This document shows, piece by piece, positions 28,648-36,294 of a stretch of DNA of 47,147 nt (within the stretch, counting starts at the first letter, position 1; every line of letters starts with the position of its first letter). Source of the DNA: Clostridiaceae bacterium (GTDB taxonomy: Bacteria; Bacillota; Clostridia; Saccharofermentanales; Fastidiosipilaceae); NCBI GenBank assembly GCA_012520525.1, contig JAAYOA010000061.1, positions 1 through 47,147 of the forward strand, in the 5' to 3' direction. Under the pieces are notes generated by a model, which made no database searches, was not told where the DNA came from, and saw only the letters and a program-made list of their open reading frames with translations. The position numbers and the translations under genes were made by a program.

Positions 28648-30411
28648 ATGAGTTGTCAAAGTAAAGCTGTAAAACAATGGGTCGATGAAATGATCGAACT
28701 TTGTCAACCTGACAAAGTTGTTTGGCTGGACGGTTCTGAAGAAGAAAAGAAACGTCTAGAAGAAGAAGCCCTTTCAACGGGTGAAATGCAGCTTCTCGAC
28801 CAAGAAAAATGGCCAGGTTGTCTCTATCACCGCACGGCGGTAAACGACGTTGCACGTGTTGAAGGCAGAACGTTCATTTGTACTAGAAAAGAAGAAGACG
28901 CTGGTCCAACTAATCACTGGGCAGACCCCAAAGAGATGTATGAAAAATTAGGTGCGATGTATGACGGCGTTATGAAAGGCCGCACAATGTATGTCATCCC
29001 CTATATCATGGGTCCCGCCGGTTCACCGTTCTCTAAAGTGGGCGTTGAATTGACCGACAGCATTTATGTTGTATTAAACATGCGCATTATGACCCGTATG
29101 GGTGATGTCGCCTGGAAACAACTCGGCGATAGCGATGAATTTGTTAAAGGTCTGCACTCCAAAGCAGCTGTGGATCAGGATAAGCGCTACATCGTACATT
29201 TCCCCGAAGACAATACCATCTGGTCCATTAACTCGGGTTATGGTGGAAATGTTCTGTTGGGTAAGAAGTGCTTTGCTCTGCGTATTGCTTCTTTCCAAGC
29301 TAAGAATGAAGGATGGATGGCTGAGCATATGCTCATTCTCGGCATTGAGAACCCCGAAGGCAAGACTCAATATCTTACCGGTGCGTTCCCAAGTGCCTGT
29401 GGCAAAACAAATCTAGCCATGTTGATTCCTCCGGCATACGCCGAAGGTTACAAAGTTTACACCGTCGGTGACGATATCGCTTGGATGCGTCCTGATAAAA
29501 ATGGTGAAAACTTATTGGCGATTAATCCGGAATCCGGCTTCTTTGGCGTCGCTCCTGGTACCAGCATGAAGTCCAATCCGAATGCCATGTTGACAACAAA
29601 AACAAATACGATTTTCACCAACGTTGCATTGACAGATGATATGCAGCCTTGGTGGGAAGATATGGGCATACCAGCTCCGGCTCACTTGACCGACTGGATT
29701 GGCGACGACTGGACTCCTGACAGTGATAAGAAAGCGGCCCATCCTAACTCTCGCTTTACTGCTCCTGCCGGACAGTGCCCCTGTATTTCTGATCAATGGG
29801 AAGATCCGAATGGTGTACCTATTTCTGCGATCTTATTTGGTGGTCGTCGTGCTAAGACTGCTCCCTTGGTCTATCAATCGTTTGACTGGAAGCACGGTGT
29901 CTTCGTAGGTTCTACAATGGCATCTGAAACTACAGCTGCCGCAGCCGGCGCAGTCGGTGTCGTACGTCGTGATCCCATGGCTATGTTGCCTTTCTGCGGT
30001 TATAACATGGGCGATTATTTCCAACACTGGCTTGATATGGAAGACAAGATTAAAAATCTACCTAAGATCTTTAATGTTAACTGGTTCCGTCTTGACGATA
30101 ACGGCAAGTTTATTTGGCCGGGCTTCGGCGATAACTTCCGCGTTCTGCAGTGGATTCTGAAGCGTTGCAACGGTGAAGTCGATGCCGTCGAATCCCCCAT
30201 CGGTTATCTGCCTCATCCAGAAGATATTTGTCTTGATGGTCTTGATGACTTCACGACTGAAGACGTGGCAGACTTGCTAAGTGTGGACATCGACGTCTGG
30301 GAAGAAGAGATTGCTGACATCGAAGAACACTACAAGAAATTTGATCGTCTGCCTCAAGAGTTAACTGATCAGCTAGCAGCAATGAAAGAACGCTTTGCCA
30401 AGTTGAAATAA
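28648..30411 (+). CDS. pckG: Phosphoenolpyruvate carboxykinase (GTP)
   Basis: This enzyme interconverts oxaloacetate and phosphoenolpyruvate with GTP/GDP. In fermentative anaerobes it often runs toward oxaloacetate on the way to succinate. The 587 residues match the GTP class, not the shorter ATP class. The P-loop [15 protein letters not shown] contains the hyper-reactive Cys, VGDDIAWM is the metal-binding Asp block, [10 protein letters not shown] and [14 protein letters not shown] are substrate and nucleotide segments, and [19 protein letters not shown] is the guanine-binding region. GAAAGGA sets the ATG. It is monocistronic, with a terminator about 105 bases downstream. Codon use is regular and GC is slightly raised, which would fit high expression. 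Confidence 0.96.
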
Positions 30412-30731: not shown

Positions 30732-31607
30732 ATGAACCATTATATTGCACATATTGGTAATTTAAAATATGCCTTGAATATTGTCAGAGATGAAGCTTGG
30801 ATGGATAAAATTACTTCGGCGATATCAGATCGGGTAGAAAATCTTAAAGACAGCAATCCATCGTTAGGCACACTTCAAATTACTACCCTAGCCTTTATTA
30901 ATTTTATGAATGACTTTTACGAACTTGAAGAACAGCGCGATGAGCTTTTGGCAGCTCTTGAAAAAGCAGATCCCGAACAAGCAACCGCGTTTAAAGATAA
31001 GCTTGCCCAGGAGTTAGCATCACAGGCAAATGCATCCAAGGGAAAAAAACAAGAAAGATTAACACAGAATAATGTCCCAATCCGCACGAGCAACGAAAAA
31101 AGTCTAAAAAACAGTCCTAATCGAGCGGAGACGAAGAAACGTATAGAACCAAGTCAGAATTCTGAACAGAAACCGACAGGCTCTGATGTATCAGGAAGTT
31201 CTGAAACAACCATGTCTACATCAACGACTTCACCCTTCCAGTCATTGAGTCAGGTGCCAACAACGGAAACACCAAAAGCTCCGGCGCGCCCTGTACGTAA
31301 ACCCGGTGTTTCTATTGATCCATTGACGGGTAAACCTCGGGAGGTAGACCGCAGCAAGCAGTCGACGGCGATCGACCCTTTAGCGCCGAAACGAAAAAAG
31401 ACAGAAAAAGGGGATATTAATCCTTTTGCACATAGGACGAAAAAAGAATCATATTCGATTGATCCATTTACCGGTAAACCACGCCAAAGTCAATCTGCTA
31501 AACGTTCTGGAACTGGTACTTCTAAATCATCCCGAGAGCACGATTCAAAGAAAGACAGATCGGATCACAAAGGACGCCGCGGTAGCAGTATTAATCCTTT
31601 TAAGTAA
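30732..31607 (+). CDS. zapA: ZapA-like cell division protein with long repeat-bearing tail
   Basis: The first 100 residues match ZapA, which cross-links FtsZ filaments at midcell. They comprise a small beta-alpha head (LKYALNIVRDEAWMDKITSAI) and a coiled-coil helix (MNDFYELEEQRDELLAALEK). Normal ZapA ends there. Here about 190 further residues follow that are rich in Ser, Thr, Lys and Pro and appear disordered. The last 100 carry a motif five times: SIDPLTGKPR, AIDPLAPKRK, DINPFAHRTK, SIDPFTGKPR, and SINPFK as the exact C-terminus. The track start at 30717 is upstream of TGGAGG; ATG 30732 is correct. The U32 peptidase follows after about 50 bases, the order seen in other Clostridia, which supports the ZapA call. 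Confidence 0.8.
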   Translation: MNHYIAHIGNLKYALNIVRDEAWMDKITSAISDRVENLKDSNPSLGTLQITTLAFINFMNDFYELEEQRDELLAALEKADPEQATAFKDKLAQELASQANASKGKKQERLTQNNVPIRTSNEKSLKNSPNRAETKKRIEPSQNSEQKPTGSDVSGSSETTMSTSTTSPFQSLSQVPTTETPKAPARPVRKPGVSIDPLTGKPREVDRSKQSTAIDPLAPKRKKTEKGDINPFAHRTKKESYSIDPFTGKPRQSQSAKRSGTGTSKSSREHDSKKDRSDHKGRRGSSINPFK

Positions 31608-31659: not shown

Positions 31660-34278
31660 ATGAATTTTAGCGGTGAAATTCTCGCACCGGTAGGTAACTT
31701 CGAAATGTTAAACGCGGCTTTAGCCTATGGTGCCGATGCCGTCTACTTCGGCTGCGGTCATCTCAATGCACGCAGCGAAACTGCAGCCTTCTCATTGACC
31801 GACCTGCCTAGAATTGCTAGATTATGCCACCGTCATAATTGCCGTGCCTATTTAGCTTTAAACACGTTGATTTATTCACATGAAATTGATTTAGCTATGA
31901 CATATGGGAATGCGGCAATGGCAGCAAATATAGACGCTGTGATTGTCCAAGATATCGGCTTAGCCGCTGCACTCCACAAAGCTTTTCCCGAAATGATTTT
32001 ACACGGCAGTACCCAAATGACCATCGGTTCTTTGGCTGCACTTTCCTGGGCACGGGAGATTGGAATATCCCGTGTTATTCTGCCTCGTGAGTTATCGCTA
32101 TCAGAGATTAAATACTACACCGATTTTGCCCACTCAATTGACTTAGAAGTCGAAGTGTTTGTCCATGGAGCACTCTGTGTTTCCGTTTCTGGGCAATGTG
32201 GATTAAGTCGTCTCGCCGGTGGTCGCAGTGCCAATCGAGGCGAATGCGCTGGACCATGCCGACATGAATGGATGCTTTTTCAAGATAATCAAAAAGTAAA
32301 AGAGGGTGCTATCCTGTCTCCGCGAGATCAGAGTATAATCACACAAATACATCAGTTGGCATCTTTAGGAATAGATTCCTATAAAATTGAAGGACGTTTG
32401 CGTCAACCTGTTTATGTGGCGACAGTTGTGGAAGCTCTCCGCAACGCTTTGACAGGGCAACCTGTTGATGAGGAAGCATTGCTATTAGCCTATAATCGCG
32501 GCGGACATTTTACGACTGCTTTTATGCACGATGAAGACGGCACTGACTTTTTGTCTGGCTCTTATGTTGGCAGTTTTGGAATTTGTAACGGTGTTGTTGT
32601 GGAATTAGATCCGGACCAGGGTTGGTTGTATTATCGACCAGAAAAAAATCGGTCTTTACCCGGTGACGGCGATGTATTATCTGTACGTACCCCTGATGGC
32701 AGCAGAGAATTAGCAAGTTCTCCGGCAAGGCAAATTAAAGAAACAGGAGGACTTGTCGGTTACCGAGGGCTTCATCCCGATGTTTTGCGCAAACTTAATC
32801 GGGGCGATCGCATCTACCGCATGACAAATGTCAGCAAAGAAAAAGAAGTCGCCTCTGCGAAATTACCGCGGTTGCCTGTCGTTATGTCTCTCGAGGCCGC
32901 AGGTTCAGTTGTGCAGTTGACAGCCCACTTACAAAATGAACCTGATAGTCAATTTAGTTCGCAAACTGAAGTGATACCAGATCTACCAGCACTGCCAAGC
33001 GAACGACTTATAAAACAATTGCGTAAAACCGGCGGAACTCCGTTTTGCGCTACTGAGGTATTGTTGAATTCAAATATTAATATAAGACTGCCGATTTCGG
33101 CTGTGAATCAGTTGAGACGCCAAGTCTTGGACGGATTGCTGGGAGTGATCGACGACACAGATGGTGTTGCGTATTCTGGTTCAACCAGTGCAAAAAAAGA
33201 TGACAGTGGATCAGATTTAAAACGTCCCTTTGTGTTGTCCCTGACTACAGCCAATATGACTGATAAGTTATTCGCTGATCCAGGTGTTTCTTCGGAACAG
33301 ATACAAGGTTATATAGAAAGGGATCAAACGATTCAAGATAAGGCACAATTTGTTATAGACAACAGACCCGTTACTTCGATCCGTGCCACATATCCTGTTT
33401 ATCGCTATCCTGATCCTTTACCTGAATTAGAAAATCTGCATATAGGTATTCCAATTCAGGCCATCATTGAATGGCAGCAAAATGACCCTCAACATTTTGC
33501 TGCGTGGCGACAGTCTCGGAATGTACAGTCTTTAGCTGCTATTTTGCCGCCTGCTGCCGATCTTTCATTGTGGCAAAAGTGGTTTGAATTTTTACATCAA
33601 TGCCCTCCAGGTCTAATTGACCATATTCTTACCCAACAACTTTTGAAGGCAACTTTTAAGAATGTTGATCATTCTGCGGGGCGAAACGTGTCTTCGATAG
33701 AGATCAATGGAGATTTCGGACTTAATATTATCAATGAATTATCTTTTTCTATAATTGCTGCAGCTAATATAACAAGTATTGCCTTGTCACCTGAACTTAC
33801 ACCTGGTGAGACATTCACTCTTATCAAAGAAATTGCCGAACTTTCTGACCAAGGTCAATCGAGACATATCAACTTCTCAAAACGCTCGACAAATCCGCCA
33901 GTAAGTTCAACGGTACGAATTGCAGATGTTCTACCTGCTGTAGAAATTCTCACCTATGGCAAAGAGAGGGTTATGTACATGAAACACTGCCCCGTGGGTC
34001 TCAGGCGAGAAGGCTGTTTCCGTTGTTTAGGGCATCGATATATGATGCGTAATCTTCGTTTTGAAACGGATCAATACGAATTACACTGTCACAGAGCGTA
34101 CAATTGTTGGACTGAGTTGAGGACAACTGATCCCACAGATCGCAGGCAATTGTGGAGTGAACTTATGCAATGGCAAAAGCTCAGTCCACAACTAGAACTT
34201 ATTGCTAGATTGGAATTTACAACTGAATCTGCGACTGTACAAAGGGACATCGTGCACAAATTAATTTCCGCAATATAA
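31660..34278 (+). CDS. U32 family peptidase-like protein (DUF3656-type)
   Basis: The 872-residue protein starts with LAPVGNFEMLNAALAYGADAVYFG, the barrel entrance of the U32 family. The family signature is EVFVHGALCVSVSGQCGLSR, followed by SANRGECAGPCRHEW with conserved cysteines. The family was named for collagenase-like peptidases, but several bacterial members act in RNA hydroxylation (RlhA, TrhP), so peptidase activity should not be assumed. The C-terminal half, including CPVGLRREGCFRCLGHRYMMR, resembles the DUF3656 extension with possible Fe-S cysteines. TTGGAGG sets the ATG. The position just after zapA is conserved in Clostridia. Confidence 0.88.
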   Translation: MNFSGEILAPVGNFEMLNAALAYGADAVYFGCGHLNARSETAAFSLTDLPRIARLCHRHNCRAYLALNTLIYSHEIDLAMTYGNAAMAANIDAVIVQDIGLAAALHKAFPEMILHGSTQMTIGSLAALSWAREIGISRVILPRELSLSEIKYYTDFAHSIDLEVEVFVHGALCVSVSGQCGLSRLAGGRSANRGECAGPCRHEWMLFQDNQKVKEGAILSPRDQSIITQIHQLASLGIDSYKIEGRLRQPVYVATVVEALRNALTGQPVDEEALLLAYNRGGHFTTAFMHDEDGTDFLSGSYVGSFGICNGVVVELDPDQGWLYYRPEKNRSLPGDGDVLSVRTPDGSRELASSPARQIKETGGLVGYRGLHPDVLRKLNRGDRIYRMTNVSKEKEVASAKLPRLPVVMSLEAAGSVVQLTAHLQNEPDSQFSSQTEVIPDLPALPSERLIKQLRKTGGTPFCATEVLLNSNINIRLPISAVNQLRRQVLDGLLGVIDDTDGVAYSGSTSAKKDDSGSDLKRPFVLSLTTANMTDKLFADPGVSSEQIQGYIERDQTIQDKAQFVIDNRPVTSIRATYPVYRYPDPLPELENLHIGIPIQAIIEWQQNDPQHFAAWRQSRNVQSLAAILPPAADLSLWQKWFEFLHQCPPGLIDHILTQQLLKATFKNVDHSAGRNVSSIEINGDFGLNIINELSFSIIAAANITSIALSPELTPGETFTLIKEIAELSDQGQSRHINFSKRSTNPPVSSTVRIADVLPAVEILTYGKERVMYMKHCPVGLRREGCFRCLGHRYMMRNLRFETDQYELHCHRAYNCWTELRTTDPTDRRQLWSELMQWQKLSPQLELIARLEFTTESATVQRDIVHKLISAI

Positions 34279-34944: not shown

Positions 34945-36294
34945 ATGGCAATCATGAATCATATTCGTACTCAAATTCCCCCTTCCATTTACGACAATGT
35001 ATATCAATATTTGACTGCTGCAAACTGGCCTTGTGATGGTCTGAATCTGGAAAAAGAAACAACCGCCTTTCGAGAAAATCTGCAGTATGGCTTGAATCAC
35101 TGGGACACAGTCATGCATATGTTTCCTTCTTTTATTAATGTCAGCGAGGCAATCCCTGTAAATGAAACGGCCATTGTTATTGATGCAGGGGGAACGAATT
35201 TGCGTCTAGCAACAGTGTATTTTGATGATCAATATGAACCGATAATAGAACATTTTGAACAACACTTAATGCCTGGTATGGACGGACCTTGTGGATATGA
35301 AGAGTTCTATGATATTTTAGCAGCACTTGTTGAACCACTTTTAATTTATAGTACTAAGATTGGTTTTTGTTTTAGTTTTGCAACGAAAATGTTGCCTAAT
35401 AAAGATGGTTTGCCCAAACCTTTTAGCAAAGAATTACAATTAAACGCCATAGTCAACCGTCCCATCGGACAGTCACTTCATGAAGCTTTGATCAGAAGAG
35501 GCGCTTTGTCTGAAAAAGATAAATTTGAAATCGTTATTTTAAATGATTCGGTGGCAGCCCTGCTCGGCGGTCTACAACATGTTAAGCAAGAAGGCTTATC
35601 TGTTTAAAATTACATCGGTTATATCTTAGGTACGGGAACTAATACTGCATATATTGAAGACAATTCTAGGATTACTAAATTAAAAGATCATTCAAATGTC
35701 GGACGGATGGTTATGAACACCGAGTCCGGTACTTATCCTATTGAAAACCGCAGTCGGTTTGACAGGGACTTGGATGCAAAAACCCAGTATCCCAACGATC
35801 ATTTGTTTGAAAAAATGATTTCAGGGCGCTATAAAGGGGATTTATTGGATGAAATTATAAGTCAATCTATTAAACATACAGATCTATTTTCTACTGCTTT
35901 CAGAATAGCTTATCGCGATTGTGATTGTGTGAACACAATCGCCATGAGTTCTTTTATAGAAGACCCCTATGCAAGTGGTTCTCTGGCTGATCTTTGTGCT
36001 GAGGAAACTGACAGAGCGACAATGATGTTGCTTGCCCATGCCATCGAAGATAGAGCTGCTCAACTGGCATGCTGTAATATCGCAGGCATTTTGACCCATC
36101 TCAAACCAGACAACCAACTGCCAGTTGCCCTTATAATTGACGGCAGCACTTATTTTAAATCCCCGACTTTTAAAGCATATTTAGATCATTATTTTTCAAA
36201 ATATATAAATAAAAAATTAAATTATAAATTACAGATCATACCTTCAGTGAACGGCAATCTCGTTGGAGCAACGGTGGCAATTTTAACAAATTAA
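34945..36294 (+). pseudogene. Hexokinase family gene interrupted by one in-frame TAA
   Basis: The two track ORFs (34945-35607 and 35707-36294) lie in the same frame and are joined by readable coding sequence after a single TAA at 35605-35607 (codon 221 of 450). Before the stop the protein has VIDAGGTNLRLATVYF, the phosphate-1 motif of hexokinases, and LNDSVAALLGG with the catalytic Asp. Directly after the stop comes NYIGYILGTGTNTAYIED, the phosphate-2 motif. The chain ends with a further LIIDGSTYFKS block, so the whole fold is encoded. Intact, it would phosphorylate glucose with ATP. The gene is a recent pseudogene, a sequencing error, or a case of readthrough. ATAGGAG sets the ATG; it follows dut closely. 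Confidence 0.8.

Follow-up and report, generated by a model that had tools for sequence, protein, structure and literature searches.

A divergent ZapA with a basic tail carrying five I-[DN]-P-[FL] motifs in an uncultured Clostridiaceae genome

Results

Identification of the zapA gene

The DNA analysed here (the window) is a stretch of 47,147 nucleotides, contig JAAYOA010000061.1 of assembly GCA_012520525.1, from a Clostridiaceae bacterium placed by GTDB in the Fastidiosipilaceae (order Saccharofermentanales, class Clostridia). It contains a zapA gene flanked by genes encoding a PEP carboxykinase and a U32 family peptidase (Table 1). The encoded protein matched Pfam PF05164 over its N-terminal region with an E value of 7.9e-8 and a score of 33 bits, the curated cut-off being 23.8 bits, and this single-copy gene was the only PF05164 match in the genome, which also encodes FtsZ (G000:C158, FtsZ_C 103.8 bits). 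The U32 peptidase gene also lies directly after zapA in at least five family relatives. Because the Pfam match exceeds the cut-off and is the sole ZapA match in the genome, and because adjacency to the U32 peptidase gene is common to the relatives, the gene is a genuine though divergent zapA. Its product shares the domain, the single copy and the presence of a genomic FtsZ with the ZapA family typified by E. coli and B. subtilis, but differs in having a basic tail of approximately 200 residues in which I-[DN]-P-[FL] occurs five times and in matching the NCBIfam equivalog PRK14126 only weakly, its 24.2 bits falling far short of the cut-off of 80. No significant match was found among solved structures (best E 0.043), and a single-sequence AlphaFold model of moderate confidence (mean pLDDT 56) contained helices at residues 21–41, 47–78 and 81–112 and no head strands.

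Table 1. Position of zapA, its neighbours and the features of the encoded protein within the window
Feature	Position	Strand	Evidence
Upstream neighbour, GTP-type PEP carboxykinase	28648..30411	+	Pfam
zapA gene, 291 aa	30732..31607	+	ATG start, GGAGG ~6 bases upstream, PF05164 match
ZapA domain (aa 7-90), putative head plus beginning of the coiled-coil helix	30750..31001	+	Pfam match
Low-complexity basic tail, aa 92-291, probably disordered	31005..31604	+	Composition; low pLDDT
Motif 1, SIDPLTGKPR, aa 194-203 (I = 195)	31311..31340	+	Sequence
Motif 2, IDPL, aa 214-217 (as AIDPL)	31371..31382	+	Sequence
Motif 3, INPF, aa 229-232 (as DINPF)	31416..31427	+	Sequence
Motif 4, SIDPFTGKPR, aa 242-251 (I = 243)	31455..31484	+	Sequence
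Motif 5, SINPFK and stop, aa 286-291 (I = 287)	31587..31607	+	Sequence
Downstream neighbour, peptidase U32 family protein	31660..34278	+	Pfam; synteny

Two further observations were made in and around such loci. In the relative G004 an aminotransferase-like gene stands between those for PEP carboxykinase and the U32 peptidase (locus L159), where zapA is missing. In the window itself, a hexokinase gene at 34945–36294 (+) with Pfam domains of the eukaryote-like type (PF00349 and PF03727) contains one in-frame TAA at 35605–35607 in an otherwise open frame, and is either a broken gene or the site of a sequence error.

A non-random motif array in the tail

The initial annotation had described a ZapA with a low-complexity basic tail in which an I-D/N-P-F/L motif recurs five times, twice as a full ten-residue copy and three times in shortened form, with the protein ending on SINPFK, and this description is borne out by the sequence (isoleucines at 195, 214, 229, 243 and 287). 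The coordinates given for it, 31311–31607, cover the array, but the gene itself probably begins at 30732. S, K, T, P and R abound in the 200-residue tail, which contains 41 K/R, 21 D/E, 31 S and 18 P but just 25 I/L/V/F/M/Y residues; the motifs account for five of the seven isoleucines and for three of the four phenylalanines, and pLDDT in the single-sequence model was mostly below 50 at residues 104–191. Spacing between successive copies is 19, 15, 14 and 44 residues, so that the regularity claimed for the array holds for the first four copies and not for the last gap. Among 200,000 shuffled tails, 534 contained one motif and none contained two or more (an expectation of 0.003 per tail), the pattern used having been picked after inspection of the data. 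GC content by codon position is non-random across the tail, with a low third position as in neighbouring genes, and is consistent with coding; a frame-shift artefact was rejected, as neither codon-position GC nor the +1 frame gave any sign of a displaced conserved tail. The array is real and non-random, and it was found in one genome.

The main rival to a function in docking, and a serious one, is neutral drift, by which the tail would be a fast-evolving low-complexity linker whose repeats arose through local duplication and divergence without a specific partner, the functional peptide of the relatives having been lost. Several features of the array speak against this. The two full 10-mers differ at five codon positions, of which four are synonymous and one exchanges L for F, suggesting that the peptide has been kept, in a comparison biased by the selection of the pair for protein similarity. 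All five copies retain the four-residue pattern although the surrounding DNA has diverged, and the last of them falls exactly at the C-terminus. Drift is nonetheless favoured by the great variation of ZapA tails across the order in length, charge and sequence and by the presence of the array in one genome only. In addition, no ZapA match was found anywhere in the genome of G004 (82% complete), which suggests that zapA may be only weakly constrained in the family. Overall we regard drift as less likely than not, though it is the strongest of the alternatives.

Distribution of the array

Conservation in orthologues is the usual proof of a functional short linear motif. The pattern [IVL][DN]P[FLYM] was absent downstream of the ZapA domain in all 97 other ZapA loci of the order and in all 70 sampled outside it within the class, a set spanning order and class in which the nearest ZapA proteins compared are at family level; the conservation in related species on which the initial annotation had staked its proposal was thus not seen. 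At the DNA level, I[DN]P[F/L/Y..]TGKP occurred at two sites in 186 order genomes, both inside the window zapA. A search for a homologous tail in 391 genomes of the class gave a best E value of 0.0125, and none of the weakly matching loci had a frame carrying at least two motif copies. No closer relatives emerged when genome_contigs and viral_contigs were searched by peptide. Derivation of the motif from a known family was also considered and rejected: across 84,980 species (genome_contigs), I[DN]P[FL]TGKP[RS] occurred once per protein in unrelated proteins, among them one protein family of Actinoplanes and Paractinoplanes, and in no ZapA. On these comparisons the array is lineage-specific at best and could be private to one species.

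Separately, a number of Sphingomonas proteins of 450–690 residues (L045, L057, L071, L072, L100, L104) were seen to end in a tail rich in proline whose C-terminus, INPLTGKPRGSH...GRR, is conserved; as far as seen they are unrelated to ZapA.

A long tail, which the initial annotation had taken as unusual, proved to be ordinary. Past the ZapA domain, the median stretch measures 96–123 residues in the order's groups f1, f3 and f4 and 97.5 residues in the 70 class ZapA proteins from outside the order. The window tail is set apart instead by the array and by its net charge, which is +20, whereas none of the 167 other ZapA tails exceeds +7.

A conserved C-terminal peptide in other ZapA proteins of the order

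A different short peptide, Q-x-[ST..]-[FIL]-x-[DE], was present near the C-terminus of 53 of the 56 ZapA tails of groups f1, f3 and f4 (loci include L003, L005–L011, L012–L017 and L147–L168), in most cases 8–40 residues from the end. Its core, Q-x-[TSNRD]-[FILM], was found in 53/56 tails as against a mean of 15.2 and a maximum of 26 in shuffled sequences, a comparison in which the Q-x-[ST] pattern was written with the data in view and the sequences, being related, are not independent; among the class ZapA proteins from outside the order it occurred at chance level (20/70 versus 18.2). Versions include QMTIYDY, QMSIEEL, QLTFEDYL and QLSLQDCL in f1, the window's own family, RQTSIDDL, QLTIEDA and LQTSFAEI in f3, and QTNLEDYL and QQSRLEDYI in f4. 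Group f2 proteins have other conserved ends (EPTPMEQLA, LPLEELA, LLPLEQYC, LLPLEQYCKENNIP). Some of the order's peptides resemble sliding-clamp-binding motifs, such as QIDLF (L147), QMSIEEL and QLSLQD. No name for the peptide was found in the literature searched. The maintenance of such a peptide in sister lineages supports the view that ZapA tails may serve as docking arms in the order.

Group f2 proteins (e.g. L016, L020, L171–L174, L184–L189) were also observed to have an N-terminal extension of approximately 70–80 residues ahead of the ZapA domain.

The window tail resembles those of the peptide-bearing proteins in being long and probably disordered. Whereas they have one conserved hydrophobic-acidic peptide near the end, it has none and carries the five I-[DN]-P-[FL] copies instead; the sole match to the Q-type pattern in the window ZapA is QERL, beside the coiled coil. 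The array could conceivably be a multiplied and altered form of the order's peptide, generalized as [ST]-[IF]-[DE]-[DE]-[LY], with S-I-D-P-L/F standing for S-I-D-D-L and the same partner retained. When a profile of the relatives' peptide was run along the window tail, four of the six best places coincided, in register, with I-[DN]-P-[FL] sites, GVSIDPL ranking first, as this explanation would predict. The scores at these places were low, however, the best being 1.5 where the maxima of shuffled tails had a median of 2.3 and nearly all true sites reached at least 9.8, and the window sites have neither the Q that is conserved in the relatives nor their second acidic residue. We consider a common origin of the two motifs unlikely.

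Candidate partners in the genome

The FtsZ encoded in the window genome has a mid-linker DVPEFL motif, the C-terminal end ILPWFFDDDDDNYDE and an acidic tail, DDDDDNYDE; FtsZ usually ends in DIPxFL. A SepF with an acidic N-terminal stretch is also encoded, and no matches to EzrA or DivIVA were obtained in this genome (92.7% complete). SepF and FtsZ are candidate partners of the tail, since both are encoded in the genome and have strongly acidic stretches, EzrA and DivIVA not being detected. A wall protein, also suggested by the initial annotation as a partner, found no support. The sequence I[DN]PF is encoded at 70 DNA sites in the genome as against 33 for the reversed control, and among the in-frame sites examined there was no second protein in which it is repeated. 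A partner sharing the motif was thus rejected, as the other proteins examined carry at most one in-frame I[DN]PF, and an IDPF-coding site just downstream of SepF lies outside any gene.

In most family members FtsZ (L129–L139) ends in a conserved ILPWFF/ILPWLF-acidic peptide, and several of these proteins also keep a DVPAFL-like mid-linker motif.

The acidic stretches of FtsZ and SepF, together with the exceptional net charge of the tail, would also fit an explanation in which the tail acts mainly by charge, bundling FtsZ through binding to the acidic ends of these proteins, or else contacting DNA or membrane, with the motif copies playing a minor part. Charge alone does not account for a repeated hydrophobic motif, and a similar acidic FtsZ end occurs in relatives whose ZapA tails are neutral or acidic. 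As the principal activity of the tail this is improbable in our judgement; a charge contact with the acidic end of either protein may nevertheless operate alongside docking.

Discussion

Members of the ZapA family assemble into coiled-coil oligomers and bundle FtsZ, and ZapA is commonly viewed as a small FtsZ cross-linker without a tail. The window protein is a variant of this known protein. The literature searched describes no ZapA tail motif, in agreement with the statement in the initial annotation that no ZapA with such an array is known to have been described.

Our tentative reading, to which we give slightly less than an even chance, is that the basic disordered tail of this ZapA serves as a multivalent docking arm in which the array has replaced the single C-terminal peptide of the relatives. 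It is favoured because the array is non-random, because its copies remain similar as peptides despite their codon differences, and because the tails of sister lineages hold a conserved peptide. The N-terminal domain would probably bundle FtsZ filaments as a coiled-coil oligomer, by analogy with other ZapA proteins. Each I-[DN]-P-[FL] copy would be a short linear motif presenting one hydrophobic-turn-hydrophobic element to a pocket of the partner. With five copies per chain, multiplied by oligomerization of ZapA, individually weak contacts could add up to tight recruitment dependent on the Z-ring. In this lineage the array would stand in place of the one Q-x-[ST]-[FIL]-x-[DE] peptide of the sister tails. 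A multivalent docking arm had been put forward in the initial annotation, and the repetition of the motif in a hydrophobic-poor tail and the tail peptide of sister lineages agree with it. Against it, the motif appears in no other ZapA examined, from family level outward, and its spacing is uneven.

Two known systems offer comparisons. Eukaryotic endocytic proteins carry several short D/N-P-F (DPF/NPF) motifs along a disordered arm and thereby gain avidity; the window tail is like these in motif layout alone, and no homology is claimed. Within the Firmicutes, the conserved QNR motif of EzrA binds FtsA, an instance of a short motif in a Z-ring protein that mediates recruitment (PMC12288466) and a comparison of how the two might work only, since protein and motif are unrelated and EzrA was not detected in the window genome.

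As long as it is known from a single uncultured genome and relatives have yet to turn up, the five-copy array is a curiosity; it would exemplify the conversion of a one-site peptide into a multivalent one. A bolder proposal, which we think has little chance of being correct, is that in this order ZapA acts as an adaptor, its disordered tail bringing another machine to the Z-ring by means of the order-specific C-terminal peptide, and that the window lineage has rewired this arm to five sites, whether its partner is unchanged or new; if so, the sliding-clamp-like versions of the peptide would tie division to replication. In our view the order-wide C-terminal peptide is a more useful and more testable result than the array. 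Should the tail act as a docking arm across the order, ZapA would be a recruiter as well as a cross-linker, and the conserved peptide would provide a direct handle on the partner recruited.
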